In this document: in pieces, positions 9,678 to 51,628 of the stretch
How the letters are laid out: each line of letters starts with the position of its first letter
How positions within the stretch are numbered: position 1 is the stretch's first letter
DNA from: Sporichthyaceae bacterium
GTDB taxonomy: Bacteria > Actinomycetota > Actinomycetes > Sporichthyales > Sporichthyaceae
Reading direction: 5' to 3'
Assembly: GCA_036493475.1 (NCBI GenBank)
Contig: DASXPS010000093.1
Span: forward strand, 1 to 64,000
DNA: 64,000 nucleotides
Notes under the pieces: generated by a model
What the model was told of the DNA's origin: nothing
Database searches by the model: none
The model's input: only the letters and a program-made list of their open reading frames with translations
Program-made: the position numbers and the translations under genes

Positions 9678-10681
9678 CCGCCCCGACCACCGAGACGTTG
9701 CTGAGTCGCGCGGCTGCCGAGCGAATGTACGAGCTGATGCTCACCACCAAACTCGCCGACGACCAAGCGCGCGAGGAAACCAAGGCGGGACGCCTGCAGG
9801 CGGCGTTCTACCCGGTTCGCGGGCTGGAGGCGGTGTGCGCCGCGCTCGGGGAGGTGCTGCGCGCGGACGACCAACTGGTCTCGACCTACCGCAACCTCGG
9901 CGACGCCCTGGCCAAGGGCGTCAGTCTGCGGGCGATCATGGCCGAGCTCTACGGCCGCCTCGATGGGGTGTCCAAGGGCAAGGGCGGCTCGATGCACCTG
10001 CACGACACCACGGTCGGCTTCATGACCACCACCGGCATCGTCGGGTCCGGCCTGCCGATCACCCTCGGCCTCGGCCTGGGTGCGCAGTTGGACGGTTCGG
10101 ACCGCGTGGTGGTGGTGACCTTCGGCGACGGGGCGACCTCCATCGGCGCCGCGCACGAAGCGCTCAACCTGGCCGTGCTGTGGCAGCTGCCGATCCTGTT
10201 CCTGTGCCAGAACAACCAGTGGGGCGAGCACACCCCGATCGCCGAGTACGCCGGGTCCACCGACCTGCGCGCCCGCGCCGAGGCCTACGGCATGGCCGCG
10301 CACCGGGTCGACGGCTTCGACCTGTTCGCCACCCTGGACTGCCTGCGCGACGCGGTCGCGTCGGTGCGCGCGGGCGGCGGGCCGGTGTTCGTCGAGGCGA
10401 TGACCTACCGACTCACCGGACACACCGGCACGGCCGACTTCAGCTACGTGCCGGCCGATGAGCTCGCCGCCGCGATGGCCCGCGACCCCGCCCCGGTGTT
10501 CCGCGCGTGGTTGGTCGAGTCCGGGGCGCTGAGCGAGGGCGAGGCGAACGCGGTGGCGCACCGGGCCGAATCGGCGGTGGCCGACGCCTTCGCCTTCGCA
10601 CAGGCCAGTCCGCTGCCCGGGCCCGACGAGCTGTGGACCGACGTGTTCGCCACCGATCTGATCAATTGGGAGGAGCGGTGA
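9674..10681 (+). CDS. 2-oxoacid dehydrogenase E1 component, alpha subunit (copy 1)
   Basis: Thiamine-diphosphate-dependent decarboxylase subunit (335 aa) of the pyruvate/acetoin/branched-chain type. The ThDP motif starts at GDGATS (about residue 151) and ends in QNNQWGEHTP. Conserved features YRNLGDALAKG and the KGKGGSMHLHD loop are present. It overlaps SDR upstream (ATGA) and E1 beta downstream (GTGA). No E2 acyltransferase or E3 lipoamide dehydrogenase is found in the window. A second, clearly related E1 alpha lies at 35142-36140. It may serve a dedicated complex that shares E2/E3 from elsewhere, or act without E2. Confidence 0.93.
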   Translation: MTAPTTETLLSRAAAERMYELMLTTKLADDQAREETKAGRLQAAFYPVRGLEAVCAALGEVLRADDQLVSTYRNLGDALAKGVSLRAIMAELYGRLDGVSKGKGGSMHLHDTTVGFMTTTGIVGSGLPITLGLGLGAQLDGSDRVVVVTFGDGATSIGAAHEALNLAVLWQLPILFLCQNNQWGEHTPIAEYAGSTDLRARAEAYGMAAHRVDGFDLFATLDCLRDAVASVRAGGGPVFVEAMTYRLTGHTGTADFSYVPADELAAAMARDPAPVFRAWLVESGALSEGEANAVAHRAESAVADAFAFAQASPLPGPDELWTDVFATDLINWEER

Positions 10682-11712
10682 GCGCCCTCGCCGAACCGAA
10701 GACCGAGGAAATGACCTCGGCCGTCGCGATGAACTCCGCGCTCGACTGCGCGATGACCGCCGACCCCAAGGTGATCCTGCTCGGCGAGGACATCGCCGAC
10801 CCGATCGGCGGCGTGTTCAAGGTGACCAAGGGCCTGTCGACGAAGTACGGCACCCACCGTGTCCGGGCCACCCCGATTTCCGAACAGGCCATCGTCGGCA
10901 CGGCGATCGGACTTTCGCTGGCCGGATACCGACCGGTCGCGGAGATCATGTTCTTTGACTTCGTCACGGTCGCGATGGATCAGATCGTCAACCACGCAAC
11001 GAAACTGCGGTACATGTCCGGCGGCGCGACCCCGGCCCCGATCACCGTGCGCACCACCGTCGGCGGCAGCCGATTCGGCGCCCAGCACGCGCAGTCACTG
11101 GAGGCGTGGTTCATGCACACGCCCGGCATCAAGGTGGTGATGCCGTCCAACCCGGTGGACGCGAAGGGCCTGCTCACCTCCTGCATCTTCGACGACGACC
11201 CCTGCCTGTTCATCGAGCACCTCAACCTCGCTTACAGCAGCAAGGCCGAGGTCCCGGTCGAGGACCTGCGCATCCCGCTGGGCAAGGCGAACGTGCTCGC
11301 CACCGGCAGCGACGTCACCCTGATCACCTACGGCCCGACGGTTCCCCTGGTCCGCGCCGCCGCCGAGACCCTGGCCGCGCAGGGCATCAGCGCGGAGGTC
11401 ATCGACCTGCGCACCCTGATGCCACTGGACCTGGACACCGTCTTCGACTCGGTGACCAAGACCCGCCGGGCCGTCGTCGTGCACGAGGCCACCCAGTTCA
11501 TGGGCCCCGGCGCCGAAATCGGGGCGCAGATCCACGAGCAACTGTTCGGTGAACTGCTCGGCCCGGTGCTCCGGGTCGGCGCGCGGTTCACCCCGGTCCC
11601 GTTCTCCCGGGGCCTGTCGAACGCCCCCTCCGCCGAGCGGATCCTCGGCGCGGCACACGCCCTGCTGGCTAGTCCGAGGGTCAACCGGTCGGCGGGCCGA
11701 ACGGCGGGTTGA
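10678..11712 (+). CDS. 2-oxoacid dehydrogenase E1 component, beta subunit (copy 1)
   Basis: Transketolase-like beta subunit (344 aa). It shows LLGEDIADPIGGVFKVT, the KYGTHRVRATPISEQ segment, GYRPVAEIMFFDF and the C-terminal EVIDLRTLMPLD block. GTG 10678 overlaps the alpha stop by 4 nt; a longer open frame upstream is ruled out because it would lie inside the alpha gene. The last 32 nt overlap the convergent cupin gene, coding for a Ser/Arg/Gly-rich tail that copy 2 lacks, so the extreme C-terminus may be a recent extension. Confidence 0.93.
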   Translation: MSALAEPKTEEMTSAVAMNSALDCAMTADPKVILLGEDIADPIGGVFKVTKGLSTKYGTHRVRATPISEQAIVGTAIGLSLAGYRPVAEIMFFDFVTVAMDQIVNHATKLRYMSGGATPAPITVRTTVGGSRFGAQHAQSLEAWFMHTPGIKVVMPSNPVDAKGLLTSCIFDDDPCLFIEHLNLAYSSKAEVPVEDLRIPLGKANVLATGSDVTLITYGPTVPLVRAAAETLAAQGISAEVIDLRTLMPLDLDTVFDSVTKTRRAVVVHEATQFMGPGAEIGAQIHEQLFGELLGPVLRVGARFTPVPFSRGLSNAPSAERILGAAHALLASPRVNRSAGRTAG

Positions 11713-13285: not shown

Positions 13286-13978
13286 CTAGTAGGTGACCAG
13301 GCCGAGGGCCTCGAGGCGGTGGCGGTCGTTCAGGCTCTCCACCACCCGCCGGCCGTCCGGGGAGGCGCGGACCACGCAGACCGAGGCATGCGCCGGAAGG
13401 AAGAACATGTCCGCGTCGATGCCGAGGAACTGCGCGAGGTAGGCGTTGATCACCCCGCCGTGACAGACCACGGCGACCGTCTGCCCCGGGTGACGCTCAA
13501 TCAGGTCTTCCACTGCCGTGGTGGCCCGGGCCCGCAGTTCCTTGCTGGTCTCGCCGAAGGGGTAGACGTCCCAGCGGCGGGTGCGGGCGAACTCGACGTG
13601 CGCCGCGACCCAGGCCTCGGCGCCGACGTGGTCCGAAGGCCAGATGTCAGCGGGCATGTCGGCGTAGGCGTCGACCTCCGCAAGGTCGGGACGCACCAGC
13701 GGTTCGACCCGGTGGCCGGCGGCGATCGCCTCGGCGGTGGCCCGGGCGCGGAGCATGTGGCTGCAGGCGAGAGCCGCGAGGGACTCCCCCGCCAGGTGCT
13801 CGGCCACCGCGGCCGCTTGCCGGCGGCCGGTTGCGGTCAACTCACCGTCCAGCCAGGCCTGCGGCATCACGCCGGCCGGTGTCGACTCCTGCTGGGCATG
13901 GCGCACCAACAGCAGCCGGGTGAACTCCGTCCCGTCGCGCAGCAGCGCGGGATCGAGGTCGATGTACGCAGGCGGCAT
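13286..13978 (-). CDS. Histidine phosphatase superfamily protein (230 aa)
   Basis: Phosphoglycerate-mutase-like fold. The catalytic motif is LLLVRHAQQE (RHG changed to RHA) and the second histidine is in VVCHGGVINAYL. ATG 13978 overlaps the stop of unknown-family gene B by ATGA. A related phosphatase (37191-37856) also lies beside an unknown-family member, so the association recurs. The physiological phosphate ester is unknown; a role in CoA- or prenyl-phosphate metabolism is only a guess. Confidence 0.88.
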   Translation of the reverse strand: MPPAYIDLDPALLRDGTEFTRLLLVRHAQQESTPAGVMPQAWLDGELTATGRRQAAAVAEHLAGESLAALACSHMLRARATAEAIAAGHRVEPLVRPDLAEVDAYADMPADIWPSDHVGAEAWVAAHVEFARTRRWDVYPFGETSKELRARATTAVEDLIERHPGQTVAVVCHGGVINAYLAQFLGIDADMFFLPAHASVCVVRASPDGRRVVESLNDRHRLEALGLVTY

Positions 13979-14973
13979 CACCGCTGGACGAAGCCCTCGG
14001 ATCGGATCCGGTCGGCGAAGCACTCCAGCCACGTCCAGCCGTTGACCAGGGTGCGCTCATCGCCCTGACGGCGCGTCACACCGCCCTGGGCCCGGTACCC
14101 GCCCCAGCGTGCCTTGTTGAAGCCACCCATCTGCTGGGTGGGGTCGCCGGTGAAGGTCCAGGCCCCGGCCGGGCCGAGGTCGTAGCTGCCGGTGGCCACG
14201 TAATCCTCGGCGTCGAGGGTGAAATCACCGCGGACGTCGGTGCAGATCGCCGTCGCCCGGTCACCCTCGACCACCACCCCGGCGCTCCAGCCCTGCCGCC
14301 CGCGCACGATGTGGCCGAACTCCACCGTGCCGTCGTCGAACTTGTTCGCGAATACGTTCCAGGAGATCTGCAGGTCGATGTACCAGCGGTACTCCTTCCA
14401 CTCCGCGCCGTGCTGGAAGTACAGGTGGTCGAAGAACACCGGGCCCTCGACCGGTTCACCGAGCACCGAGCCGGTGACCCAGTAGGACTGGCTGGCGTAG
14501 CCCAGTGGTTCGCTGCGGGCCGGCGCGAAGAACTGCACACCGTGCCCACACCGCGCCCCGGACAGCGCGACGGCCGGCCCCTCGGTCCAGCTGAAATGGT
14601 CGTCGGTGATGGTCAGGTCGATCGGCAACTCGGCGGAGTCGTGCAACATCCCCTTGGATTTCCAGTTCCGCCGCAGCGGTTCGAAGTCGCGCACCAGTTC
14701 ACCCTTGGCGCTGTGGCCGGACTCCGGGGCCAACTCCATCGCCCCGGAGGAGTTGGTCAGGATGTAGTTCCCGCCCGACATCGGGCCGATGAACTTGCGC
14801 TCCACGATGTAGGTCTTGCCCGAGGCGGTGGTGAAGCCGCCGTAGACGTACTGCGACTGCAGGGTCATCCCATTGAGTTGCTGCTCGGGCATGATCGCCG
14901 AAAGGTCGGGCTCGTAGATCCCCGCGACGTTGCAGAAGTTGTAGTCGCCGACCAGCTGCCGCTTCTCGCCCAC
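13978..14973 (-). CDS. Unknown family, paralogue B (331 aa)
   Basis: Close paralogue of A, sharing LQSQYVYGGF, ERKFIGPMSGG, SAKGELVRDFEP, ITDDHFSWTEG, YASQSYWVTGSVLGEPVEG, FFDHLYF, AEWKEY, WNVFANKFDDGTVEFGHI and GGFNKARWGGYRAQGGVTRR. GTG 14973 is chosen because GAGGTGG lies upstream; GTG 14991 is possible but has no ribosome-binding site. It overlaps the histidine phosphatase and is divergent from a TetR gene whose promoter carries shared motifs. Function unknown. Confidence 0.8.
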   Translation of the reverse strand: MGEKRQLVGDYNFCNVAGIYEPDLSAIMPEQQLNGMTLQSQYVYGGFTTASGKTYIVERKFIGPMSGGNYILTNSSGAMELAPESGHSAKGELVRDFEPLRRNWKSKGMLHDSAELPIDLTITDDHFSWTEGPAVALSGARCGHGVQFFAPARSEPLGYASQSYWVTGSVLGEPVEGPVFFDHLYFQHGAEWKEYRWYIDLQISWNVFANKFDDGTVEFGHIVRGRQGWSAGVVVEGDRATAICTDVRGDFTLDAEDYVATGSYDLGPAGAWTFTGDPTQQMGGFNKARWGGYRAQGGVTRRQGDERTLVNGWTWLECFADRIRSEGFVQR

Positions 14974-16388: not shown

Positions 16389-19082
16389 TCACGGGAGGGT
16401 GAGCACGACAACCGTGCCCGCCGTACCGTCGACCTCGACCTCCATGCCGTCCACCAGCCGGACCGTCGAATCGGCCGTGTCGCACACCGCGGGGATCCCG
16501 AACTCCCGAGCGACCACGGCGGCGTGGGACAACATGCCGCCGATGTCGGTGACGACCGCGGCCGCGTGGCCGAACAGGGGGGTGTATCCGACGTCGGTGA
16601 CCTGGGTGACGAAGACCTCACCCGGCTCGAGGAGGTCGGCCGTTTCCGGCGTGACGACGCGTACCCGCCCGCGAGCTTTTCCGCTAGCCGCGGCCACGCC
16701 GGTGAGGCGATCGCCGACGGCCAGGATGGGCACCTCGGGCTCCGGCTCCCACGGCGCGACGAATGCGATCGGCAGCCGGATCTCGGCCAGCCGTTCGCGT
16801 TCCGCCCGCCGGCGGGTAACCGCCGCCCGCGCGTCGCTGCCGGGCGCGAACAGCTCGTCGTAGGTCAGGTAGAAAACATCCGATGCATCGCTCAGCACAC
16901 CGGCCGCGGTCAGCCGTCGGCCCTGTTCCCGCGCGATGGACCGCATCACGCCGATGACCCGCACCAACGCGTCCCGGTCGCGTTCGCGCTCCCCCGTTGC
17001 CCAGCGGGCCAACGCGACCGCGGGCCGCGCCCGGCGCGGGACGGCGACCGCGTCGGCCGGCCGCCGGCGCGTCGCAGCCGGCGCCCTGAGCGCGGCTGCT
17101 GCCTTACCCACGGTGCGCAGCACCAGGTCGGGGTCGTCGGCGAACACCGACGAGGCAAGTTCGCACTCGGCCGGCCCGCGGTGGCCGAACGTCCGCAGCG
17201 CCTCGGTGACCGCGTTCGCGAAGCGGGGCGAGACGGCCTCGGCCCGACCGAGCAGTCCACTGCCACCCTCGTCGAGCACCGCCAGCACCGCCGGTTCGGC
17301 CGCGGCCAGCTCGGCCAGCCGGCGCACCCCGCTCAGGCCCTCGGCACTGGTGAGACCCTCGCCGACGGCCATCACCACGCCGGTCCGGCCCGCCAGCTGT
17401 TCGGCGGTATTGGTCCCGGCGCCGGAGAGGATCGCGCCCAGCGCGGCCAACCGCCAGCCATGACACTGCAGGTCGTAACCGAGGTTGAACATCGATTCCA
17501 AGGCCGGGTCCGACAGGCCGGCCGGATCATCGGCGAGCCGTTCCAGTCGGGCGACCTGACGCAGCATCTCGTCGATGTCCCGGCGATAACCGGCCAGCAC
17601 GCCGACCAGCCGCAGGCCCATCGCGCCGCCCGCCTTCGCCTTGCCGCGCCGCGTGGTGACCTTGTCCATCGGCAGGTCGGCGAAGCTCAGCGGCGGTAGC
17701 TCCTCCACGTGGCGGCCAAGGTACTGCCGGGCGAAGGAGTCCGCGTCCCAGCCGGGCGAGAGCTCGCCGATGGCGGCACCGGTGGCCACGTTCATGTACA
17801 CGCGATGGCCCTGGATGCTGAACATTCGGGCATGCGCCTCGGTCCGCGCGACGCCGTGCAGACCGACGAAGTGCACGGCGGCGACGCCGGCCTGCGCGAA
17901 CGCGGGCGCCACCGCGGTCAACGACAGCGGCGTGGCGGGTCCCGGCAACGCCTCGGAGAAGTTGGTGGCGACGAACGTGGAGAATCGGGGGTCCACGGGA
18001 CTGTCGAACTCCCCCACCTGATCGGGCTTGGCGCCCGCCTCGAGCGACCCTCCGTCCAACGCCGGGGTGTCCGAGGGAACCCGACCCGGCAGAAACGGCT
18101 GCTTCCACGGCACGGTGACCGCCTTGTCGCCGACGCCGAGGACGCCGACGAGTGACAGCCGGGTGTCCTCCAGCGCGTCCGGGCCCGACCACGCGCACTC
18201 GAACCCGAACTCCTCGCGTTGCCGCGTGGTGTCCAGCAGCGGCTGGTACAGCACGAAGCGGAAGTCACCGACATTCACCGGGAGCATCTTGCGCTTGTAC
18301 CCGGCAGCGATGCCCTTTTCCAGCCGGTCCTCGCGTACCCGCACGATGCGTTTGCCGAAGGCGGCGGCGACCTGCTCGACCGAGAGGATCTCCTCCGCGG
18401 CGAGGTTGACCGGACCGGCCGGGCCCCGCTCACACGCGACGGCAAAGAAGCGACCGACGTCGTCGGCGTGCACGACCTGCCAGCTGATCTCCCGGCCCTT
18501 GGCCACCGCGATAACCGGGCCGGCCAGCAGGTTGCGGACCCGATTGTCGATCCGGCGGCCGACCACGATCGGCGAGCGGATGCTGATGGCATCGACGTCG
18601 GCGGCCGCCAGCAGCGCTTCCGCCTCGGCCTTGTGAACGGCGTAGGTCGCCTCGGGATGGGGCGCCAGTGGGGTGCTCTCCCGCAGCCGGCTGCGGTCGT
18701 CCGGCTTGGGACCGTAGGCGGTGGTCGAACTGGCAAAGACGACCCGGCGCACGCCGGTGCGCGCCATGGCGGCGAGCACGTTCTCGGTGCCACCGATGTT
18801 GATGGCCCGCTCGGCCGGGTCGCCGAACAGCGCCTCGACCGCCCAGGCGCAGTGCGCGACCACGTCGCACCCGTCAAGCGCGCGGGTCAGCGCGTCGAGG
18901 TCACGGATGTCCGCGGACACGTAGTGCGCACCGACGCACGGGTTGGCCGGCGGCCGGCGCGACAGCCCGATCACCCGGTGTCCCCGGCGCAGCAGGCGTT
19001 CGGTGATCTCGCGTCCGAACACCCCGCTCGCCCCGGTGACCAAAATCGTCCGGGGAGGGTTCTCGACCTCGAGGGTGGTCAT
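16389..19082 (-). CDS. Fusion: NAD-dependent epimerase + PEP-utilising/rifampicin-phosphotransferase-like protein (897 aa)
   Basis: Residues about 11-300 are an extended SDR (TGASGVFGREITERLL Rossmann motif, ASSTTAYGP and a YAVHK catalytic pair). Residues about 390-780 resemble the substrate-binding region of PEP synthase/rifampicin phosphotransferase relatives (TNFSEALPGPATPLS, GHRVYMNV). Residues about 784-897 are the swivelling phosphohistidine domain with GGMLSHAAVVAREFGIP (catalytic His about 853). The ATP-grasp domain that charges the histidine in the full-length enzymes is absent, replaced by the epimerase. ATG 19082 overlaps the nitroreductase stop (ATGA), so a longer frame upstream is rejected. 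A stand-alone relative is at 38974-40578. Reaction unknown. Confidence 0.85.
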   Translation of the reverse strand: MTTLEVENPPRTILVTGASGVFGREITERLLRRGHRVIGLSRRPPANPCVGAHYVSADIRDLDALTRALDGCDVVAHCAWAVEALFGDPAERAINIGGTENVLAAMARTGVRRVVFASSTTAYGPKPDDRSRLRESTPLAPHPEATYAVHKAEAEALLAAADVDAISIRSPIVVGRRIDNRVRNLLAGPVIAVAKGREISWQVVHADDVGRFFAVACERGPAGPVNLAAEEILSVEQVAAAFGKRIVRVREDRLEKGIAAGYKRKMLPVNVGDFRFVLYQPLLDTTRQREEFGFECAWSGPDALEDTRLSLVGVLGVGDKAVTVPWKQPFLPGRVPSDTPALDGGSLEAGAKPDQVGEFDSPVDPRFSTFVATNFSEALPGPATPLSLTAVAPAFAQAGVAAVHFVGLHGVARTEAHARMFSIQGHRVYMNVATGAAIGELSPGWDADSFARQYLGRHVEELPPLSFADLPMDKVTTRRGKAKAGGAMGLRLVGVLAGYRRDIDEMLRQVARLERLADDPAGLSDPALESMFNLGYDLQCHGWRLAALGAILSGAGTNTAEQLAGRTGVVMAVGEGLTSAEGLSGVRRLAELAAAEPAVLAVLDEGGSGLLGRAEAVSPRFANAVTEALRTFGHRGPAECELASSVFADDPDLVLRTVGKAAAALRAPAATRRRPADAVAVPRRARPAVALARWATGERERDRDALVRVIGVMRSIAREQGRRLTAAGVLSDASDVFYLTYDELFAPGSDARAAVTRRRAERERLAEIRLPIAFVAPWEPEPEVPILAVGDRLTGVAAASGKARGRVRVVTPETADLLEPGEVFVTQVTDVGYTPLFGHAAAVVTDIGGMLSHAAVVAREFGIPAVCDTADSTVRLVDGMEVEVDGTAGTVVVLTLP

Positions 19083-19774: not shown

Positions 19775-21217
19775 CTACAGACAGCTGGGTTTGTCGCCCC
19801 GGGGCGCGGTCCACTTGCCGCCGACGATCTGCATCGGGAACGCGCACATCTTGTTCACCTGCGCCGGCGGCTTGCCCGGCACGTAGGTCAGGGGCTGGCT
19901 CGTTCCGCCCAGTGTCTCGTTCTTGAAGGTGTAGAGCCCCTTGAGCAACAACGCGGTCGACGGGATCGCGTCGGGCGCGATCGACTGCGCCGCCTTGGCG
20001 AAGATGTCCGCCACATTCCAACCCTGCGCGTGCGCAGCAAAGATCTGATCGAGACCCACCGCCTGCAGCAGGACCGAACGGAACCGCTTCTCCTCGGGCA
20101 GCGTGGTGTCGATGAACGGGAACTGCTGGCTCGGGATGATCAGCCCGTCCATCGCCGGATTGCTCGGGGAACTGGGGTCGGTCAGCACCGGCGCGGTGAC
20201 GTAGGTCGGCTTGTAACCCTGGCGCGAGCAGTCCCGGGCGATCCGCTTGACCGAGTTGATGTCGATGCGCAGGAACAGCACCTGGGCACCGGCGTTGCGC
20301 GCCTGCAGGCAGTTGGCGGTGAAATCCGGTGCGGTCAGCGACGCCCGGCCCGCGAACACCGGCGTGAACCCCGCCTTCGCGGAGAAGCCCGCGAACGTGG
20401 TCGCGTAGTCGCTGCACTGCTGCACCTCCTGACAGGAGATGAAACCCACCTTGTGGCCCGCGCCGAGCAGATCGCGGGCGGCGGCGAACTCGGTGCCGTT
20501 CAGCGCGATCCCGGACGCACCGAAGCCGAAGATCATCGGGCTGGTGGGCGCCAGCAGGTTCGAGTCGTCACCGTCCAGGATCGGGATGCCTTTGGACTCG
20601 ACGTAGTCCACGGCGGCCTGCGACAACGAAGCCGCGTGGGTGTTCCCGACGAAGCCGATCACCTTGTCCTGCTCGACCATCCGACGTAACTGGGCCAGGT
20701 AGATCGCGGGGTCACCACCGTCATCGGCGACGATCAGCTTGATCGGGTGATCGTTGATCCCACCCCGGCTGTTCAGGTCGGTGAGGTTCGCCTGGATCGC
20801 GGTGAGCAGGGGCCGGAAGGACGTCCCGTAGAGGCCGGTGATACTGCCGACGAAACCGACGGTGATCGGCAGGTGGTTGGCCGGCGCCCGGGCGACTGGG
20901 CCACGACCCGCGGCCGGCACGGCTCGGCCACTGCCGGATGACGCGGCCGGCTTGGCCTTGACGAGCGGGGCCGCCGGGTCGGTGACCACGGTCGCGGTCG
21001 CCGCGGCCGCGCCCGGGGTGGCGGTAACCGCACCCGGGTTCGGCGCGCCGGTGTCGATGACCACCGGCGCCGCATCGCTCGCGCCGGTGACGCCGGCCGA
21101 GACCGGCACACCCTGCTGGGCGGCCACGATCTCTCCGCGGCTCAGACTGCTGGCGCAGCCGCCGAGCAGAACGAGCCCGCAGAGGATCACCGATGTCCGG
21201 CGGGTCAGGCGGTTCAT
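19775..21217 (-). CDS. ABC importer substrate-binding lipoprotein (cassette 1, 480 aa)
   Basis: Lipoprotein signal peptide with lipobox LLGGC (lipidated Cys21), then an Ala/Pro/Val-rich linker to about residue 115, then a type I periplasmic-binding fold of the branched-chain amino acid (Peripla_BP_6) class (PITVGFVGSITGLYG ... VADDGGDPAIYLAQLRRMV). It captures a small organic ligand outside the membrane. Its ATG overlaps the livF-type gene stop by 4 nt. In this region the ligand is more likely a catabolic substrate than an amino acid, but that is inference. Confidence 0.92.
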   Translation of the reverse strand: MNRLTRRTSVILCGLVLLGGCASSLSRGEIVAAQQGVPVSAGVTGASDAAPVVIDTGAPNPGAVTATPGAAAATATVVTDPAAPLVKAKPAASSGSGRAVPAAGRGPVARAPANHLPITVGFVGSITGLYGTSFRPLLTAIQANLTDLNSRGGINDHPIKLIVADDGGDPAIYLAQLRRMVEQDKVIGFVGNTHAASLSQAAVDYVESKGIPILDGDDSNLLAPTSPMIFGFGASGIALNGTEFAAARDLLGAGHKVGFISCQEVQQCSDYATTFAGFSAKAGFTPVFAGRASLTAPDFTANCLQARNAGAQVLFLRIDINSVKRIARDCSRQGYKPTYVTAPVLTDPSSPSNPAMDGLIIPSQQFPFIDTTLPEEKRFRSVLLQAVGLDQIFAAHAQGWNVADIFAKAAQSIAPDAIPSTALLLKGLYTFKNETLGGTSQPLTYVPGKPPAQVNKMCAFPMQIVGGKWTAPRGDKPSCL

Positions 21218-21939
21218 CGCGGTGCTCCTTCGGTGGACGCTGCGGCGCGGACCGGCTCCAGACCCGCGTAGGACTGGAAGATCCGCTCCTCGTCGAGCTC
21301 GTGCGGCTCACCGACGAAGCCGACGCGGCCACGGGAGAGCAGCACGACGTAGTCGGCCAACGCCAGTGCCCGCCCGACGTACTGCTCGACCAGCAGCAGC
21401 GCGGCCCCCCGGGCGCGCAGGGCGGCGAGGAAGGCGAAGACCTCGTCGACGACGACCGGGGCCAGACCCATCGAGACCTCGTCGAGCAGGATCAGCCGCG
21501 GGGACTGCAGGTAGGCCCGGGCCAGCGCGAGCATCTGTTGCTCGCCGCCACTCATCGAGCCGGCGCGTTGGTTCATCCGGCGGCCCAAGGTCGGGAACGC
21601 CCGTACCGCCAGATCCAGCTCGGCGGCGCGGTTACCCACGAACAGCGCCAGGTTCTCCCGCACGGTGAGCCCGGGGAAGACCGCGCGGCCCTCCGGCACG
21701 GTACAGACCCCGTGCCGGACCAGGTCATGCGGATGACGACCCGTCACATCCGTGCCGTCCACGAGCACCTTGCCGCGCATCGGCCGCAGCGTGCCCGCCG
21801 CGACCCGCAGCAATGTGGTCTTGCCCGCGCCGTTCGGCCCGAGCAGCGCCACCGTGCTGCCGTCGGGCACCACGAGGTCGACGTCGCTGAGTACCGGCGC
21901 ACCCGTGTACCCGGCGGTGACGTTGCGCAGCTCAAGCAT
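21214..21939 (-). CDS. ABC transporter ATP-binding protein, LivF type (cassette 1)
   Basis: 241-residue ATPase with Walker A GPNGAGKTTLL, signature SGGEQQMLALARA, Walker B LILLDEVSMGLAP and a switch histidine region in LLLVEQYVGRAL. It energises import with the LivG-type partner encoded upstream, whose stop overlaps this start by 8 nt. Length is normal for LivF. Confidence 0.95.
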   Translation of the reverse strand: MLELRNVTAGYTGAPVLSDVDLVVPDGSTVALLGPNGAGKTTLLRVAAGTLRPMRGKVLVDGTDVTGRHPHDLVRHGVCTVPEGRAVFPGLTVRENLALFVGNRAAELDLAVRAFPTLGRRMNQRAGSMSGGEQQMLALARAYLQSPRLILLDEVSMGLAPVVVDEVFAFLAALRARGAALLLVEQYVGRALALADYVVLLSRGRVGFVGEPHELDEERIFQSYAGLEPVRAAASTEGAPR

Positions 21940-22735
21940 GGGCCGCCTCCTCGACGGTCCCGAGGTAGGCCTGGCGGACCCGGTCGTCGCGGAGCACGGC
22001 CTCGGTCGGTCCGTCGCACAGGTGCACGCCGAAGTCCAGTACGTACAGATACGCGCAGATCTCCCGAACCAGGGTCATGTCGTGCTCGACGACCAGCACC
22101 GAAGCACCGGAGTCGGCCACGATGTCGCGCACGATCCGGGCGAACACCTCGGTCTCCGTGGGGTCCAGGCCCGAGGACGGTTCGTCGAGCAACAGCACCG
22201 GCGAGCGGCCGCACACGGCGCGCGCGAGTTCGACCAGCCGCCGCTGACCGGTGGAGAGCGAACCGACCCGGCGAGCGGCGAGATCGGAAATGCCGCACAG
22301 CTCCAGCGCCTCGCGCACCCGGGCTGCCTGCGCCCTGCGGGCCCCGCGCGGGGCGAGGAAACATTTCCATGGCCGCCCGCCGGCCTGGCGCGCCTCAACG
22401 GCGAGTCCGACGTTCTGCGCGACCGGGAGCGAGTCGCACAACGCGAAGCGTTGGAACGTTCGCCCCAGGCCGTGCCGCGCGCGGTGCGCGGGCGACCAGG
22501 AGCTGACGTCGACCCCGAGCAATTCCACCCGGCCGGCGGCCGGATGCACCGTGCCGGCGCAGGCGTTCAGCGTGGTGGTCTTACCGGCCCCGTTGGGCCC
22601 GATCAGGCCGACGATCTCCCGCGCGCGCACCTCCAGGTCCAAGGCGTCCACCGCGCGGGTACCGCCGAACTGGACCGTCAGCCCGCGGGTGGCCAGCACC
22701 CGCTGCTCGGGTCGTGCCTCGACCGGCGTGTTCAC
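21932..22735 (-). CDS. ABC transporter ATP-binding protein, LivG type (cassette 1)
   Basis: 267-residue ATPase. Walker A is GPNGAGKTTTLN, the signature is LSTGQRRLVELARAV (SGGQ replaced by STGQ), Walker B VLLLDEPSSGLDP, and VVEHDMTLV carries the switch His. GTG 22735 overlaps the permease stop by 4 nt; the longer open frame upstream is in permease DNA and is not coding. It pairs with the LivF-type ATPase. Confidence 0.94.
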   Translation of the reverse strand: MNTPVEARPEQRVLATRGLTVQFGGTRAVDALDLEVRAREIVGLIGPNGAGKTTTLNACAGTVHPAAGRVELLGVDVSSWSPAHRARHGLGRTFQRFALCDSLPVAQNVGLAVEARQAGGRPWKCFLAPRGARRAQAARVREALELCGISDLAARRVGSLSTGQRRLVELARAVCGRSPVLLLDEPSSGLDPTETEVFARIVRDIVADSGASVLVVEHDMTLVREICAYLYVLDFGVHLCDGPTEAVLRDDRVRQAYLGTVEEAAHA

Positions 22736-24663
22736 CCGCGCACCCCCGCGTGCGTCGGGCGCGCCGGGCGCGCGAGCTGACGGGGCGGCAGGAATTCTCG
22801 GCGCCGCAGCCGTGAGGCCACCCGGCCGCGGTCCCAGCCCCGGTTCAGGTCGAACTGACGGTCCGACAGCAGGCTCGCGGCGATGGCGGCCGCCCCGAAG
22901 ATCGCGGTGTACCAGCCCGGGTCCAAATGGATCTGCGTGGGCATGACCGCCAGGGCATACGCCGCGGCCGCGGCGCGGATCACCGTGGCCCGCGAGCCGA
23001 ACAGGGCGAGCACGGCGACCCAGGTCAGGCCGACGGTGTATCCGTAACCGCGGCTGCTGGCCTGCAGGGTCACCCCGGAGGCGAGCGCCCCACCGATCGA
23101 GGCGAGGAAACCCGCGATGCAGAACACGGCCGTGCGGATCGTCGTGGTGTCCCCACCGTTGGCCGCCACCGCGTCGGCGGACTCCGCGTTCGCCTGCAAG
23201 AGGCGACCCAGCCGAGCCCGCTGGATGCCGAAGACCAGCACCGCGGCCAGGGCAGCCAGGGACACGCAGAGGTAGTAGTAGCCGCGGTCGGTGGCCAGAT
23301 CGAGTCCGAACAGCGAGATCTTCGGCCGCGCCACGGCGCGGAAGCCGCCACCGAACATCGCCTGCGTCGGGTACACCAGCTGCTGGAGCAGCACGGCGAA
23401 CGCGAAGGTCGCCAGCGCCAGATAGAGCCCGGAAAGGCGCAGCGTGGGCAGCGCCACCGCCACCGCGACCGGCACCGCGATCAAACCGGTGGCCAGCAAC
23501 GCCGCACCCCACGGCAGCCCGGCGTCGAGGAACTTACTCATCGCCGCGGCGCCGATGGCGGCGAAGGCCGCATGTGCCAGCGAGACCTGACCCGAGGTCC
23601 ACACCATCAGCCCGAGGCCGAGGAAGACCACCACCAAGCTCGCCGCGGTGGTCCACACCGACAGGGATGTGTCCACGAAGGCCGGCACCACCAGGGCCAC
23701 CACGGCCAGGGCGAGGACCGCCTCCCGGTGCAGCCGCGGCGTGACCGCCCGCCCGCCGGCGGTCCGGCTGCTGCTGGGGACGTCGAAGAACTTCCGCGCC
23801 GGGGTCACCACGAGCAACGCGAACAGCACCAGGAACGGCGCGACGTCGGGGATCCCTGCCCAGAACGGCGAGTTCGGCAGGTGCTCGCCGATGAACCTGG
23901 CGGACAGCGTCGAGGCCACCCCGATCGCGATACCGCCGGCAAACGTTGCACCGATCGAACCGAACCGACCCACCGCGGCCGCGCCGAATGCCTGGACCAC
24001 GAGCAGCGCCAGCACGACGGTGTCCAGGCCGAGGCTGGGCGCCAGCAGCAAACCGGTGGCGCAGGCGAACACCGAGCTGATCACCCAGGCAGCACGACGG
24101 ACCGAGGTCGGGTTGTCGCCCTCGTAGGAGAGCAACTGCGGGTTGTCGACGACTGCGCGCATGCGCAGCCCGGTCTTGGTGAAACGGAAGAGCGCGAGCA
24201 GGCCCAGTACCCCGGCGACCGCGATGCCGAAGCCGATCAGCTGCTCGTAGGAGACGAAGGTGCCGACGATCTTGACGGTGCCCTGCGGCAGGAATGCATT
24301 GAGCGGGATCGTGGCCGGCCCGTAGTGGACGGCGGCGAGGCCCTGCACGACGAGCAGCAGGCCGACCGTGGCGACGATCCGGTAAACGGCCCGGACCCCG
24401 TGCAGACCCGCGGCCATCCGCTCCAGCACCAGACCGATGGCGGGCGCGAAGACGGCGAGCACGAGCAGCGCGGCCAGCGGCCAGGACAGCCCGCGGATCT
24501 CCTTGAGCTCGTAAAAGACGTAGGCGCCGGCCGCGGCGATCGCTCCGTGCGCGAAGTTGAACAGCCCACTGGTGCGGAAGGAGAGCACCAGGCCGACGGC
24601 AGCCAGTCCGAGCAAGGACCCGGCGACGACGCCGGAAACGACGAAGGGCAGGTAGTCGTTCAC
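22732..24663 (-). CDS. Fused LivH-LivM type ABC permease (643 aa)
   Basis: One polypeptide carries both branched-chain-type permeases. Residues about 1-290 match LivH (SFRTSGLFNFAHGAIAAAGA near the start, FGSIGATFAGGIAIG late). Residues about 310-620 match LivM (WTSGQVSLAHAAFAAIGAAA, LRLSGLYLALATFAFA). Roughly sixteen to eighteen membrane spans are expected. In cassette 2 the same functions are two genes. GTG 24663 overlaps the small membrane protein stop (GTGA). Both halves look intact. Confidence 0.92.
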   Translation of the reverse strand: MNDYLPFVVSGVVAGSLLGLAAVGLVLSFRTSGLFNFAHGAIAAAGAYVFYELKEIRGLSWPLAALLVLAVFAPAIGLVLERMAAGLHGVRAVYRIVATVGLLLVVQGLAAVHYGPATIPLNAFLPQGTVKIVGTFVSYEQLIGFGIAVAGVLGLLALFRFTKTGLRMRAVVDNPQLLSYEGDNPTSVRRAAWVISSVFACATGLLLAPSLGLDTVVLALLVVQAFGAAAVGRFGSIGATFAGGIAIGVASTLSARFIGEHLPNSPFWAGIPDVAPFLVLFALLVVTPARKFFDVPSSSRTAGGRAVTPRLHREAVLALAVVALVVPAFVDTSLSVWTTAASLVVVFLGLGLMVWTSGQVSLAHAAFAAIGAAAMSKFLDAGLPWGAALLATGLIAVPVAVAVALPTLRLSGLYLALATFAFAVLLQQLVYPTQAMFGGGFRAVARPKISLFGLDLATDRGYYYLCVSLAALAAVLVFGIQRARLGRLLQANAESADAVAANGGDTTTIRTAVFCIAGFLASIGGALASGVTLQASSRGYGYTVGLTWVAVLALFGSRATVIRAAAAAYALAVMPTQIHLDPGWYTAIFGAAAIAASLLSDRQFDLNRGWDRGRVASRLRRREFLPPRQLARPARPTHAGVRG

Positions 24664-25088
24664 GGTCGGCACCAGCCGCACGGCTCGAGCCCGGTGCGCG
24701 CCGGGTTCGACAGCACCTCGGCGGGCTTGCCGATCACCAATCGACAGGCCGGCCGGTGGTACAGCTGCCCACCCGGCAGGGCGACCCGGCGGTGGTCGGC
24801 GTCGAGTCGGGTGGCGCGGGCCGGCTGCCGGGAGCGCCGCAGCGCCCGCTGGCGCAGGCCGATCCGCGAGCGGGAGATCAACAGCAGGCGCGCGTTGCCG
24901 AACGCGGCGAGGACCAGCCCGATCGCGGACAGGTTCATCCACGGTGTGCCGTCCTTCAGCGTCGGCTCGTGGGCGGCGCCGTGCCAGCCGAGGAACAGCA
25001 GGATCGCGGCCAGCGCGTTGGCGGCCAGGGTGAGGCGCAGGGCGCCCGGCGTCCACGGCCGGGTGGCGCCCGCCGTCGTCCTGCTCAT
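24660..25088 (-). CDS. Small membrane protein (142 aa), cassette 1 only
   Basis: No family recognised. Two probable membrane segments are seen (LTLAANALAAILLFLGWHGA at about residues 18-38 and NLSAIGLVLAAFGNARLLLI at about 52-72), followed by an Arg-rich stretch and a C-terminal tail containing LPGGQLYHRPACRLVIG. It overlaps its neighbours on both sides by 4 nt, so it is translated with the importer. It may be a third subunit of the uptake apparatus; cassette 2 has no counterpart. Confidence 0.7.
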   Translation of the reverse strand: MSRTTAGATRPWTPGALRLTLAANALAAILLFLGWHGAAHEPTLKDGTPWMNLSAIGLVLAAFGNARLLLISRSRIGLRQRALRRSRQPARATRLDADHRRVALPGGQLYHRPACRLVIGKPAEVLSNPARTGLEPCGWCRP

Positions 25089-25474
25089 CGCGCGGCGGCC
25101 CGGGCCGCTGCGTCATCCGACCGGAGCACGACGGTGTCCGGCGCACCGAGGTCTGCCACGTCGGCGTCGGGCCGGCCGAGCCGGTGCTCGGTCGGCGCGG
25201 GGGACTCGCCGCGGTGGTCGTCGGAGGTGGTGGTGAGCTCGTCGAGCTTGTGCCACTCATCGCGCAGGTCGGCGGAGAGCCACAGGGTGGCGCCCAGGCC
25301 GAGAAGGAACAGCGAACCGACACCGGCCGACATCAGCAGCGGCAGCTGCTCGGCCGGGTAGGGGGTGCGACTGATCCGCACATAGCCGACCACCAGCATC
25401 ACGACGCCGGCCAGCGTCAGTCCCAGCGCCAGTGCCCGGTCCCAGTGGGCCCGCAGTGCGTCCATGCGCGTCAC
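25085..25474 (-). CDS. Small two-span membrane protein (129 aa), paired with cassette 2 homologue
   Basis: Two membrane helices (LALGLTLAGVVMLVVGYV and LLMSAGVGSLFLLGLGATLWL), then a charged cytoplasmic or coiled tail (DLRDEWHKLDELTTT). The arrangement and spacing match the 122-residue protein at 52976-53344 (LVAAGLLCVLLGYLGVRR ... YLASGGVGGLALIALGAVVLI), which sits at the same position next to a surface-anchored protein. Starts at GTG 25474, overlapping the anchored-protein gene; ends overlapping the 142-aa gene. Function unknown. Confidence 0.75.
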   Translation of the reverse strand: MTRMDALRAHWDRALALGLTLAGVVMLVVGYVRISRTPYPAEQLPLLMSAGVGSLFLLGLGATLWLSADLRDEWHKLDELTTTSDDHRGESPAPTEHRLGRPDADVADLGAPDTVVLRSDDAAARAAAR

Positions 25475-26712
25475 GACGGTCGGACTCCTCGGAGGCGAAG
25501 CAGTTGGCCCAGCAACAGGACGCCGAGACCGGCTACGACGAAGGGCCAGAACAGAGCCGGATTGAGATCGGCCGATCGGGCGGACAGCGCCGCAGGGCTG
25601 ACCCGGACGGTCGGGACGATGGCGCGGGTGGCGGCGGTCGGCCAGGTGGTGGTGGTGGCGACCCCCGGCAGCACGCCGGGTGTTGCCGCGGCGTCCGTGG
25701 GAGGCAGCGCGCCGGTGCCCGTCGGCCCGGCGGTATCCACGGTCGGGCCCACCCGCGGCGGCGGTGCCGCGTCAATCGTCGCGGGCGAGCCGGAGCTGTT
25801 CAGCGAGACGTAGCTTCGCCCCAGCGTCAGGCTCTGCGTGGTCAGGCCGAACGGTGCGCCGGCCGGCGGCTGGTAGCGCGAGGTGATCTCCAGGCCCGCG
25901 GCGAGCACGGAGTCATCGGTGATGATCGGCTGGAGGTAACGCAAGCCGATCCCCTGCTGTGACAACGCCTTGGCGATCGGACTGTCGTCCGGCAGTGGGG
26001 ACTTCTGCCCGGCCAGGCTCAGTCCGTCGGGCCCGAAGGTCAGCGGAACGCCGGCCACGGAGAGCCCGGTCACCACGAGCTGCGAGGTGGGTTGGTGGTC
26101 CTTGCCGTCAGAAATCATCTGGGCCACCGACTGCACGACGCCGATCTCGACCTCAGCGACGGAGATCCCCGTGGCAAGCGTGGTCGCCCGGGCGGTGATC
26201 GAGCGGCCGTCGGTGCTGGTCTCGGCCAGCGAGGAGGCATGGGCGAGCACGACCCCGGCCTGGTGGACGGTGTCCCCGCCCGCGCTGGCCGCGCTGCGGT
26301 CCGCGTCGCTGTCGGCCTCGAGTGAGTAGGGCCCGACCTCCTGGGATGACTTCGGGGTCGCCGGGGCGCGGGAGACGGCGAAGTAGGGGTAGTCCGGAAG
26401 CGCCGATAATTGCGGGGCGAGCCCGCGCGCGGTGCTCGGCATGGCGGTGATCTGCTCGCCGGGATTGCTCGCCGCCGCGATCGCGGTGCTGTTGCCGATC
26501 GCGTCGAGCAGGGCCCGGGCGCTGGGACTGCCGCCGTCGAAGATCGTCTCCGAGACCGGGGCGTCCTTGACCACGTAGGTCTCGTGGGCCACCTCCGCGG
26601 CGGCGGTGGCAGTGAAGCTGAGCGCGGCGTGGGCAGCGGGAGCGCGGACGAACGGCGCCGCACCGATCAAAACCGGCACGGCGACGATGCCGATGATCCG
26701 CAGTCTCACCAC
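25471..26712 (-). CDS. Secreted, C-terminally membrane-anchored protein (413 aa), cassette 1
   Basis: A signal peptide (residues 1 to about 28, ending AHA-A) is followed by a beta-rich, Ser/Thr/Ala-rich ectodomain, a Pro/Thr-rich stalk (about 330-380), one C-terminal helix (FWPFVVAGLGVLLLGQLL) and a short basic tail. No LPXTG motif. It is distantly homologous to the protein at 51625-52947: both have a VTGLSVAGVPLTFGPDGLS-like block, then ALSQQGI, then a P.....SVLAAGLEITSRY segment and an LGRSYVSL strand. First gene of the cassette 1 operon. GTG 26712 or 26709 can serve as start. I infer an extracytoplasmic partner of the importer. Confidence 0.75.
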   Translation of the reverse strand: MVRLRIIGIVAVPVLIGAAPFVRAPAAHAALSFTATAAAEVAHETYVVKDAPVSETIFDGGSPSARALLDAIGNSTAIAAASNPGEQITAMPSTARGLAPQLSALPDYPYFAVSRAPATPKSSQEVGPYSLEADSDADRSAASAGGDTVHQAGVVLAHASSLAETSTDGRSITARATTLATGISVAEVEIGVVQSVAQMISDGKDHQPTSQLVVTGLSVAGVPLTFGPDGLSLAGQKSPLPDDSPIAKALSQQGIGLRYLQPIITDDSVLAAGLEITSRYQPPAGAPFGLTTQSLTLGRSYVSLNSSGSPATIDAAPPPRVGPTVDTAGPTGTGALPPTDAAATPGVLPGVATTTTWPTAATRAIVPTVRVSPAALSARSADLNPALFWPFVVAGLGVLLLGQLLRLRGVRPS

Positions 26713-30223: not shown

Positions 30224-30240
30224 ACTGACGATACGTCAGT
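30224..30240. promoter_or_regulatory. Dyad ACTGACG-N3-CGTCAGT (site 1 of 3)
   Basis: Perfect 7-bp arms around ATA, located between the convergent SDR and unknown-family gene C and overlapping the latter's stop codon. The same arms recur at 37209-37225, and a 6-bp-arm version at 54606-54620. No T-run follows, so an intrinsic terminator is unlikely. The repeated exact arms suggest a regulator-binding site, although its position between two gene ends is odd for an operator. Confidence 0.5.
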
Positions 30241-31252
30241 GGATGGTGTCGAGGGCGAGGCCCGCGTCGCGGATGCGGTGGTCGAAGGACTCCAGCCAGG
30301 TCACCCCGGACACCAGCTCGCGGTCGTCACCCAAACGCCGGGTGATGCCGAACTGCGCGTGGTAGCCGTTCCATCGGGAGGCGGAGAACTCTGCCATGTT
30401 GTTCTCGTCCTCGCCGCGGAATTCGTAGGTGTGCCCGCCGACGTCGTACTGCGCGTGCCGGATGAACCCGCCGTCGTTGAGCACATAGCGGCCGTCGACC
30501 TCGCTGCTACCGGCGGTCAACCGGTGGTCATCGACCACCATCGCGGCGTTGAAGCCGTCCTTGCCGACGACGATTTTCCCGTACTCGATCGAGCCGTCGG
30601 CATAGACGTTGCCGAAGATGTTCCAGGAGAGCTGGATGTCGGTGAACATCTTGGTCTCCTTCCACTCCGTGCCCGCCTTGAGGTGCACGCGGTCGAAGTA
30701 AACGAGCCCGGTGGTCGGCCGGCCGAGTACCTCGCCCTGCACCCAGTACGGGATCGAGGTGAAGAACAGCGGCTCCTCGATGGAGGCGGCGTAGAACTGC
30801 ACGCCGAGCGTCCGGATCTCACCCTCGAGGTGGCACAGGTCGCCCTGGTCCCAGACGAACTTGTCGCCGTCGAGTTCCAGCAGGTACGGCAGGTCACCCT
30901 CGCGGCGGGCGGCGGCGGGCAGTCGCAGCATCACCGGGTCGGACCACTTCCGGTATTTGTCCTCCTTGGTGCGCCGAACCTCGCCGCGGTAGCTGCGGGT
31001 GGTCTCCGGCTGGATGTTCATCCCACCACGGCCGTCGGTTTGCATCACGAAGGTGCCGGTCGAGACCGACCCGACGAACTTCTGCTCCAGGCAGGTGATG
31101 GTGCCATCCTCGGCGGTGAAGAATCCGTAGACGTACTCGATCTGTTGCTCCAGACCGAAGTGCACCGCGTCGGGCCGCATGGTCGACAGGTCGTTGACGA
31201 AACCGCTCACGACCGTGCGGTATTCGAAGTCGCCATAGGTGTAGTGGTCCAT
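30236..31252 (-). CDS. Unknown family, paralogue C (338 aa)
   Basis: More divergent member of the family: YVYGFFTAEDG, EQKFVGSVSTG, PYWVQGEVLGRPTTG, YFDRVHL, TEWKETKMFTDIQLSWNIFGNVYADGS (in parts) and ASRWNGYHAQFGITRR ... GVTWLESFDHR. ATG 31252 is preferred to ATG 31282 because MDHYTYGDFEYRTVV then aligns with the GDF start of the other paralogues. No ribosome-binding site precedes it; a near-leaderless transcript is possible. It is divergent from the SnoaL-like gene across an AATAGT-N10-ACTATT site. Function unknown. Confidence 0.78.
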   Translation of the reverse strand: MDHYTYGDFEYRTVVSGFVNDLSTMRPDAVHFGLEQQIEYVYGFFTAEDGTITCLEQKFVGSVSTGTFVMQTDGRGGMNIQPETTRSYRGEVRRTKEDKYRKWSDPVMLRLPAAARREGDLPYLLELDGDKFVWDQGDLCHLEGEIRTLGVQFYAASIEEPLFFTSIPYWVQGEVLGRPTTGLVYFDRVHLKAGTEWKETKMFTDIQLSWNIFGNVYADGSIEYGKIVVGKDGFNAAMVVDDHRLTAGSSEVDGRYVLNDGGFIRHAQYDVGGHTYEFRGEDENNMAEFSASRWNGYHAQFGITRRLGDDRELVSGVTWLESFDHRIRDAGLALDTIH

Positions 31253-31257
31253 GTATA

Positions 31258-31279
31258 AATAGTTTGCCGCTTGACTATT
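31258..31279. promoter_or_regulatory. Operator-like dyad AATAGT-N10-ACTATT (site 1)
   Basis: Perfect 6-bp arms with a 10-bp spacer, in the 53 bp between unknown-family gene C and the divergent SnoaL-like gene, and only 6 bp from the ATG of gene C. An identical arrangement is at 38913-38934, upstream of paralogue D. The spacers are also related when the second site is read in reverse (TTGCCGCTTG against TTGTACCTCG). These AT-rich words are improbable in such GC-rich DNA, so a shared transcription factor is likely. Confidence 0.6.
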
Positions 31280-31305
31280 CATCGGGCAAGACCAGGGGAG
31301 CAACG

Positions 31306-35141: not shown

Positions 35142-36140
35142 TCAGCGGCTATAGGTGGGCACCGCCGATCGGTCGGCGAACACGTGGGCGTAGAGGTCGT
35201 CCTCGCTCGGTGACGCACTTGCGAAGCCGAAGTCGAAGGCGTCGGTCACCGCCGCCTCGACGTCGGCCTCGATCGCGGCCAATCGCGCCTCGTCCAGCAC
35301 GTCTTCGGCCAGCAGCCATCCCCGGAAGGTCGGGGCGGGATCGCGGGCCATCGCGGCGGCAAGTTCGTCGGCCGGCATGTAGGAGGCGTCGGCGGTGCCG
35401 GAGTGCCCGGTCAACCGGTACGTCCGGCACTCCACGAACGTCGGGCCCTCCCCGGCCCGGGCGCGTTGCAGCGCGCCGTCCAGCACTCGCCAGGTGGCGA
35501 TCGGGTCGAAGCCGTCCACCGTCTCGGCATGCATGTTGTAGGAGGCGGCGCGAGCAGCCAGGTCGGTGTTCGCCGCGTACTCGGCCAGCGGGGTGTGCTC
35601 GCCCCAGCCGTTGTTCTGACACACCACCACCAACGGCAGTTGCCACAAGGCGGCCATGTTCATCGCCTCGTGGAACGCGCCGATGGAGGTGGCCCCGTCG
35701 CCATGGGTCGTCACCACCGCGCGGCCCGCACCCTCCAGTTGCGCGGCCATCGCCACACCCACCGCGATCGGCAGGCCGGCGCCGACAATGCCGGTGGAGG
35801 TGACGAAACCGGCCTGCTGGTCGTGCAGGTGCATGGGGCCGCCCAGGCCTCCCGAGGTGCCGTCCACCCGACCCAGCAACTCGGCGATGATCGCCCGCAA
35901 CGAGGCGCCCTTGGCCAGCGCGTCACCCAGGTTGCGGTAGGTCGACACCAACTTGTCGGTCGGCTGCACCGCAGCACCGAGCGCCGCACACACGCCCTCC
36001 AGCCCACGCACCGGGTAGAACGCGGCCTGCATGCGTCCGGCGGTGACCTCGGCCCGGGCCCGTTCCCCGGCCGCGGTGGTCAGCAGCATGAGCCGGTACA
36101 TCTGCTCCAGCGCGGCCGGTTCGGGACGGGTCTCGGTCAT
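35142..36140 (-). CDS. 2-oxoacid dehydrogenase E1 component, alpha subunit (copy 2)
   Basis: 332-residue paralogue of the copy-1 alpha subunit: AAFYPVRGLEGVCAALG, YRNLGDALAKGASLRAI, ThDP motif HGDGATSIGAFHEAMNMA to QNNGWGEHTP. ATG 36140 has TGGAG upstream; ATG 36161 would put the start on a palindrome and is less likely. Unlike copy 1, alpha and beta are divergent rather than co-linear. Again no E2 or E3 gene is nearby. Confidence 0.92.
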   Translation of the reverse strand: MTETRPEPAALEQMYRLMLLTTAAGERARAEVTAGRMQAAFYPVRGLEGVCAALGAAVQPTDKLVSTYRNLGDALAKGASLRAIIAELLGRVDGTSGGLGGPMHLHDQQAGFVTSTGIVGAGLPIAVGVAMAAQLEGAGRAVVTTHGDGATSIGAFHEAMNMAALWQLPLVVVCQNNGWGEHTPLAEYAANTDLAARAASYNMHAETVDGFDPIATWRVLDGALQRARAGEGPTFVECRTYRLTGHSGTADASYMPADELAAAMARDPAPTFRGWLLAEDVLDEARLAAIEADVEAAVTDAFDFGFASASPSEDDLYAHVFADRSAVPTYSR

Positions 36141-36161
36141 GGCAGAAACTCCAGTGCTCAT

Positions 36162-36175
36162 CTAGTTAGTACTAG
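36162..36175. promoter_or_regulatory. Palindrome CTAGT-N4-ACTAG in E1 alpha/beta divergent promoter
   Basis: 5-bp perfect arms in the 68 bp gap between the divergent E1 alpha and E1 beta genes. The downstream TAGAGT (about 36174-36179) could be the -10 box of the beta gene, whose ATG at 36209 has AGAGAGGA before it. Overlap of dyad and promoter suggests an operator controlling both subunits together. Confidence 0.45.
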
Positions 36176-36208
36176 AGTAGTGCTGTCGCCCCCAGAGAGG
36201 ACACCCCG

Positions 36209-47924: not shown

Positions 47925-48004
47925 GAGAGCGCAGCGAACTCATCAATAGGCATAGGGCACGCCGGGGAGTTCGGCGCGCTGCCGGCCGTGAGGTACGCCG
48001 ATGA
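47921..48004 (+). repeat. MIRU-like coupling element 1: 27-codon mini-ORF
   Basis: An 84-nt element whose ATG overlaps the SBP stop (ATGA) and whose TGA overlaps the LivH-type ATG (ATGA). It encodes MRERSELINRHRARR... ending in VRR. Its first 43 bases are nearly the same as element 2 (49991), and both end in GAGGYACGCCG, which places GAGG seven bases before the next start. It therefore supplies both translational coupling and a ribosome-binding site. Mycobacterial MIRUs are known to contain small ORFs that overlap neighbouring genes in this way. Confidence 0.7.
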
Positions 48005-49994: not shown

Positions 49995-50074
49995 GCGAGC
50001 GCAGCGAGCTCATCAATGGGCACAGTGCACGCCCACAACGGCGCCGCACCGATCGAAGCGAGGCACGCCGGTGA
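49991..50074 (+). repeat. MIRU-like coupling element 2: 27-codon mini-ORF
   Basis: 84 nt, encoding MSERSELINGHSARP... ending in EARR. It starts on the LivM stop (ATGA) and its TGA overlaps the LivG GTG (GTGA). Arms ATGAGC and GCTCAT at its 5' end could form a small hairpin. Same length and same conserved ends as element 1; the middle differs. Confidence 0.7.
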
Positions 50075-51593: not shown

Positions 51594-51628
51594 GCGAGTT
51601 GCGAGCTCATCAACGGGCACAGCTATGA
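51590..51628 (+). repeat. MIRU-like coupling element 3 (short): 12-codon mini-ORF
   Basis: 39 nt encoding MSELRAHQRAQL then TGA. It retains ATGAGCGAG...GAGCTCATCAACGGGCACAG of the longer elements with a small internal deletion, and lacks their 3' part. Start overlaps the LivF stop and stop overlaps the next ATG, both ATGA. The next gene thus has no GAGG Shine-Dalgarno of its own and may depend on re-initiation. Confidence 0.65.

Follow-up and report, generated by a model that had tools for sequence, protein, structure and literature searches.

Liv-type importers of a Sporichthyaceae bacterium with linked anchored and small membrane proteins

The Mce (Mce4-type) systems are actinobacterial ATP-binding cassette (ABC) importers of lipids and steroids, which combine stalked extracytoplasmic subunits with small accessory membrane proteins and act on hydrophobic substrates. 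To our knowledge, little is known about how steroids, terpenoids and other water-poor compounds pass the wall in actinobacteria other than Mce users. The Liv/HAAT importers (LivKHMGF) are recognised by a PF13458 substrate-binding protein (SBP), two PF02653 permease domains and two ABC ATPases, and their COG0683 binding proteins in Rhodopseudomonas palustris bind aromatic, fatty and dicarboxylic acids (PMC3223731). Here we analysed 64,000 nucleotides of a Sporichthyaceae bacterium (assembly GCA_036493475.1, contig DASXPS010000093.1, positions 1 to 64,000; the whole stretch is called the window), which carries two Liv-type cassettes, A on the minus strand and B on the plus strand, each together with an anchored protein (ANC) and one or two small two-helix membrane proteins (S). 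The results showed that most Liv-type importers of some Actinomycetota, including relatives from Sporichthya, carry their own ANC and one or two S genes. We favour, with little more than even confidence, the reading that these proteins form a stalked receptor or coupling module which equips a Liv importer to bring hydrophobic substrates of oxidative catabolism across the wall.

The two cassettes and their genes

A sequence-only reading of the window had claimed two complete branched-chain-type importers in opposite orientation, and this was borne out, as all five core components with their standard domains are present in both cassettes. In cassette A the gene order is ANC, S1, S2, LivHM, LivG, LivF and SBP:

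25471-26709, minus strand: ANC_A, 412 aa, secreted, with a C-terminal membrane anchor
25085-25474, minus strand: S1_A, small protein with two transmembrane (TM) helices and without the zinc-type tail; E=7e-8 to S_B
24660-25088, minus strand: S2_A, two-TM paralogue of S1 with a C-terminal zinc-knuckle-like motif, yHRPaCrLVIGK...LEPCGWC
22732-24681, minus strand: fused LivH-LivM permease, a single open reading frame of 649 aa; PF02653 in two stretches, E=2e-39
21932-22699, minus strand: LivG-type ATPase; PF00005, E=1.7e-28, with PF12399 subthreshold
21214-21939, minus strand: LivF-type ATPase; PF00005, E=4.1e-30
19775-21217, minus strand: SBP_A, lipoprotein with lipobox LGGC; PF13458, E=2.2e-43, domain from residue 117

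In cassette B the order is SBP, LivH, LivM, LivG, LivF, ANC, S and a PucR-type regulator:

46299-47924, plus strand: SBP_B, lipoprotein with lipobox LSAC; PF13458, E=1.9e-53, domain from residue 148
48001-48879, plus strand: separate LivH permease; PF02653 match at this place
48879-49994, plus strand: separate LivM permease; PF02653 match at this place, E=1.2e-37
50071-50835, plus strand: LivG-type ATPase, from tblastn to cassette A and relatives and from gene order
50835-51593, plus strand: LivF-type ATPase, from tblastn to cassette A and relatives and from gene order
51625-52947, plus strand: ANC_B, 440 aa, with the architecture of ANC_A
52976-53344, plus strand: S_B, small two-TM protein without the zinc-type tail
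53347-54609, plus strand: PucR-type regulator, 3' of cassette B; PF13556 and PF17853

The accessory genes had been described as translationally linked to the importers, which applies to cassette A, where the ANC/S1, S1/S2 and LivF/SBP joints each overlap by 4 bases, but not to cassette B, where gaps of 31 and 28 bases flank ANC. Likewise, one small two-helix protein per cassette had been expected, which is right for cassette B, while in cassette A the second one, S2_A, had been missed. LivH and LivM are joined in a single chain in cassette A, as in the majority of ANC cassettes, and are separate in the clade of cassette B. From its position and its recurrence near B-type cassettes, the PucR-type protein is a probable regulator of cassette B.

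The ANC and S families and their linkage to importers

Each ANC is predicted to have a signal peptide, a beta-rich ectodomain, a disordered Pro/Ala/Thr stalk of about 75 aa, a C-terminal TM helix and a basic tail, in agreement with the architecture that had been proposed for both cassettes. For ANC_A the signal peptide covers residues 1-27, the ectodomain about 30-310, the stalk about 314-388 and the TM helix 388-406, followed by the basic tail, and the prediction for the ectodomain is a long meander of antiparallel beta strands (pLDDT 73, pTM 0.76). ANC_A and ANC_B match at 34% over 73 aa (E=0.001), including the shared AGVPxT block already noticed in the letters, and the alignment of one ANC clade profile to the other spans 369 columns (profile-profile probability 98.4, E=1.1e-14); by these comparisons the two anchored proteins are homologous. 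Orthologues in relatives are 84% and 66% identical for ANC_A and 48-61% identical for ANC_B. Relatives with a name are Sporichthya sp. records of metagenome-assembled genomes (MAGs) and two unclassified Actinomycetota MAGs. As a single query ANC_B found no relative in the first scan of genome contigs, and the family-wide ANC alignment was too variable for searching, while a tighter subset recovered the Sporichthya records.

No match for ANC_A was found in Pfam and NCBIfam, none of the 51 ANC sequences in the alignment matches Pfam at E<=0.01, and no credible match to a solved structure was obtained. Foldseek/VIA searches with two AlphaFold models found no recognisable fold for the ectodomain; the matches were to outer-membrane barrels only, with TM-scores (<0.3) and Z values (<=7.2) at background level for models of this kind, and a barrel is not claimed.

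With an iterated ANC profile, the genome of the window gave 17 ANC genes and the closed genome of a same-family relative 28. In the closed genome all 28 ANC genes have a LivHM pair within 6.6 kb and 26 have one within 1.8 kb, in comparison to a chance expectation of 3.2, with one ANC per LivHM pair, and 28 of the 40 pairs have an ANC while 12 do not. In the window's genome, 16 of the 17 have a permease system within 1.9 kb, and the remaining one is near a contig end. ANC homologues were found in several families of the class, in 19 of 394 sampled genomes, and in a further search also beyond the class, and all confident homologues whose surroundings were read adjoin Liv genes; two weak hits, L164 and L165, are not Liv-linked and both are choice-of-anchor P proteins. 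All but a few of the 111 called ANC genes, which include a few from overlapping regions, lie in Liv operons, and at least one S gene is in the operon for 103 of the 111. S is present in only one (L249) of the 19 stretches with Liv pairs but without ANC. A divergent ANC-like frame was seen beside S at L197/L249 (G002:C1, about position 1430138), between permease and ATPase genes, and the count of 28 of 40 is thus probably a lower bound.

It could be argued that ANC and S are ordinary neighbours, that is, unrelated genes brought into Liv operons by hitchhiking or by a lineage quirk. This is very improbable and, as far as genome data allow, refuted by the linkage of 28 of 28 against the 3.2 expected, by the spread beyond the class, and by the fact that gene order varies among cassette subtypes while membership is kept. 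The distances between homologues from 64 cassettes also correlate closely (r=0.87 for ANC and HM, r=0.89 for ANC and SBP, r=0.93 for HM and SBP), which shows joint inheritance and is no proof of contact; the ATPase value, a mixture of LivF and LivG genes, was left out of this comparison. The sequence-only reading had named two outcomes that would refute it, no profile similarity of the two anchored proteins and no linkage kept in other genomes, and neither was observed. Together, the linkage and the family homology across genomes strongly support the distinct module that this reading had proposed.

For the small proteins, S1_A and S_B match at 34% over 50 aa (E=7e-8), so the pattern claimed to be common to them is real; in S1_A it reads ...GY.RIS....AEQLP.L.SAGVGSL...LWLSADLRDEW... 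Independent profiles seeded with S1 and with S2 converge on the same set of about 160 proteins, and S2_A is, on sequence evidence, a paralogue of S1. The S proteins have two TM helices and a short conserved outer loop, GW.GvSg.....Q.PYl.SGGl.Gl, and both termini are predicted to be cytosolic by the positive-inside rule. The family had no credible match in the family libraries searched. A C-terminal motif, yHRpdC-lv.GK ... pCgvC, is present in 82 of 161 S proteins in comparison to 3 of 558 other short genes, and the pattern H-x(3,4)-C ... C-x2-C is conserved in the S2-type tails, which would be cytosolic and zinc-knuckle-like (HCCC), with zinc binding suggested by the residues alone. The zinc-knuckle-like tail was also seen in genomes such as G100, G073 and G058, in which no ANC was detected.

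Binding lipoproteins, catabolic context and the proposed role

The SBP itself is specialised in ANC cassettes. The post-lipobox motif common to these proteins is roughly CG[TS]R-L-S-x-x-E-[ILV]-x-A-A, and it is followed by a low-complexity linker with a median of 102 residues in 66 ANC-cassette SBPs, in comparison to 19-27 residues in five of the six SBPs of Liv systems without ANC (P=1.5e-4). In SBP_A the motif is CASSLSRGEIVAAQQG and the linker has about 90 residues, and the low-complexity linker of SBP_B has about 120. A linker motif, IDTGA, which is present in both window SBPs, was rejected as a common feature because it occurs in only 3 of 76 SBPs. Behind some ANC cassettes (L075, L211) lie four to five SBP genes in tandem, which suggests that one importer serves several ligands there.

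The module-specific linker and motif argue for a structural partnership of SBP, ANC and S, and they bear on the possibility that the module controls expression and not transport, with ANC sensing the substrate or SBP load and S relaying this to cytosolic regulators such as PucR. The conserved, predicted-cytosolic HCCC motif of S2 and the PucR-type genes that follow or flank B-type cassettes would fit such a role. However, most of the 111 cassettes have no recognised regulator in the operon, the S1-type tails are without a signalling domain, and the SBP signature points to a partnership with the transporter, so that we regard this sensor role as quite unlikely.

The genes found most commonly near the cassettes encode P450s, acyl-CoA ligases, short-chain dehydrogenases/reductases, enoyl-CoA hydratases, acyl-CoA dehydrogenases and thiolases. 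Using genome-wide P450 and ligase positions in the closed genome as the control, 20 of the 28 ANC-type systems have a P450 gene within 15 kb in comparison to 2 of the 12 other Liv systems, where 5.4 of the 28 would be expected by chance (circular-shift P=0.0006; Fisher P=0.002 for ANC-type versus other Liv). Acyl-CoA ligases lie near 17 of 28 in comparison to 3 of 12 (circular-shift P=0.002; Fisher P=0.08). The sequence-only reading had assigned the module to uptake of a hydrophobic catabolic substrate, and this part gained indirect support from the P450 clustering, less clearly from the ligases, and from the COG0683 precedent (PMC3223731). Clustering and precedent support a class of hydrophobic, oxidatively degraded substrates, within which no single compound, such as a sterol, is singled out; probable candidates are ring-type or fatty carboxylic compounds, broken down through the P450, acyl-CoA ligase and beta-oxidation genes next to the cassettes.

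The same clustering has to be set against a role as an envelope scaffold, in which a wall- or glycan-binding ANC and S would localise or stabilise the importer and its long-linker SBP while leaving the substrate untouched. Such a tether would be in keeping with the low-complexity stalks on ANC and SBP alike, with the few invariant residues in the ANC ectodomain, and with the distant similarity of some ANC members to choice-of-anchor P surface proteins. However, every paralogous importer has kept an ANC of its own that diverges along with it, for which a generic scaffold has no need, and the association is with P450-linked systems only; we consider a pure scaffold unlikely.

In the receptor or coupling reading that we prefer, ANC would act as an extracytoplasmic receptor on a stalk of about 75-100 residues, held by one TM helix. 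We infer a physical complex in which S1, S2 and the ANC helix would join the LivHM permease within the membrane, while outside the ANC ectodomain would meet the lipoprotein SBP, each on a stalk long enough to reach into the cell wall. There ANC may capture or present a poorly soluble substrate, or may dock and concentrate the SBP. The substrate would then be handed to LivHM and imported with consumption of ATP, and the S2 tail would be a possible docking point in the cytosol. Several points weigh against this proposal: its support is computational, the conserved linkage would fit a regulatory or assembly role too, the comparison groups without ANC are small (12 systems and 6 SBPs), and the ectodomain model is moderate (pLDDT 73) and has no recognisable fold, so that a ligand pocket would be hypothetical. 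In addition, S-like proteins are present in 21 sampled genomes without detected ANC, so S has some independent existence, and its role may be wider, or ANC more divergent, in those genomes.

The analysis ties undescribed protein families one-to-one to dozens of importers, and annotations as "branched-chain amino acid transporter" can thereby be revised. ANC, S and the long-linker SBP together provide a marker by which likely hydrophobic-substrate Liv systems can be told from the ordinary kind, and the deletion of single small genes makes the uptake question testable.

Around the cassettes, the window holds P450s, Rieske oxygenases, an FMO-like enzyme, a GMC oxidoreductase and a 3beta-HSD-like domain, as well as the following:

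9674-11712 and 35142-37198: two E1/transketolase dehydrogenase gene pairs
16389-19082 and 38983-40578: two PEP-utiliser mobile-domain proteins
60157-62361: MMPL-family (RND-type) transporter, where the catabolic region ends
30236-31282, 40575-41552 and 13978-14973: conserved-looking genes without a Pfam match

One of the PEP-utiliser mobile-domain proteins is fused to a 3beta-HSD/epimerase-like domain, and homologues of the PEP-utilisers were found near 12 ANC cassette regions. Homologues of the gene at 30236-31282 recur near several cassettes.

Comparison with known systems

Like ANC, the choice-of-anchor P family (NCBIfam NF040603), a family without known function, is secreted and beta-rich. 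A few ANC paralogues score 28-30 bits on NF040603 (cut-off 27), and 6 of the 51 members match at E<=0.01 (best 1.5e-6), while ANC_A and ANC_B themselves gave no match to it at E<=1 and the direct profile comparison was not significant (hhalign probability 11.6). The strong choice-of-anchor P proteins that were sampled lie outside Liv operons, unlike ANC, and several of them carry LPxTG-like sorting signals at the terminus where ANC has its TM helix. On these sequence grounds ANC may be, at most, a distant Liv-linked branch of the choice-of-anchor P superfamily.

In comparison to the Mce importers, the module would be analogous in role, with no evidence of homology: in place of MCE/MlaD subunits and YrbE-type permeases, the cassettes have PF02653 permeases and an ANC without a Pfam match. 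We put forward tentatively, as a proposal whose chance we place slightly short of even, that the Liv importer, ANC, S1/S2 and the long-linker SBP represent an undescribed, lineage-expanded uptake class of Actinomycetota with up to 28 copies per genome, in which one complex would move hydrophobic ring compounds across the wall in a manner analogous to Mce.

The Liv-type binding proteins of R. palustris offer a precedent for COG0683 importers of hydrophobic acids near catabolic genes, and the available text of that source mentions no anchored or small-membrane accessory proteins (PMC3223731). No description of the accessory module was found in the literature searched or in the curated libraries searched. 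Standard Liv/HAAT systems are without the ANC and S families present here, and the cassettes differ from them further in a mostly fused LivHM and in a long-linker SBP with its post-lipobox motif, while the 12 Liv systems without the module among the 40 of the closed relative are ordinary on this point. The gene context suggests substrates other than branched-chain amino acids for the cassettes. In general, the core of both cassettes is that of the Liv/HAAT family, and the accessory module sets them apart from its standard members.

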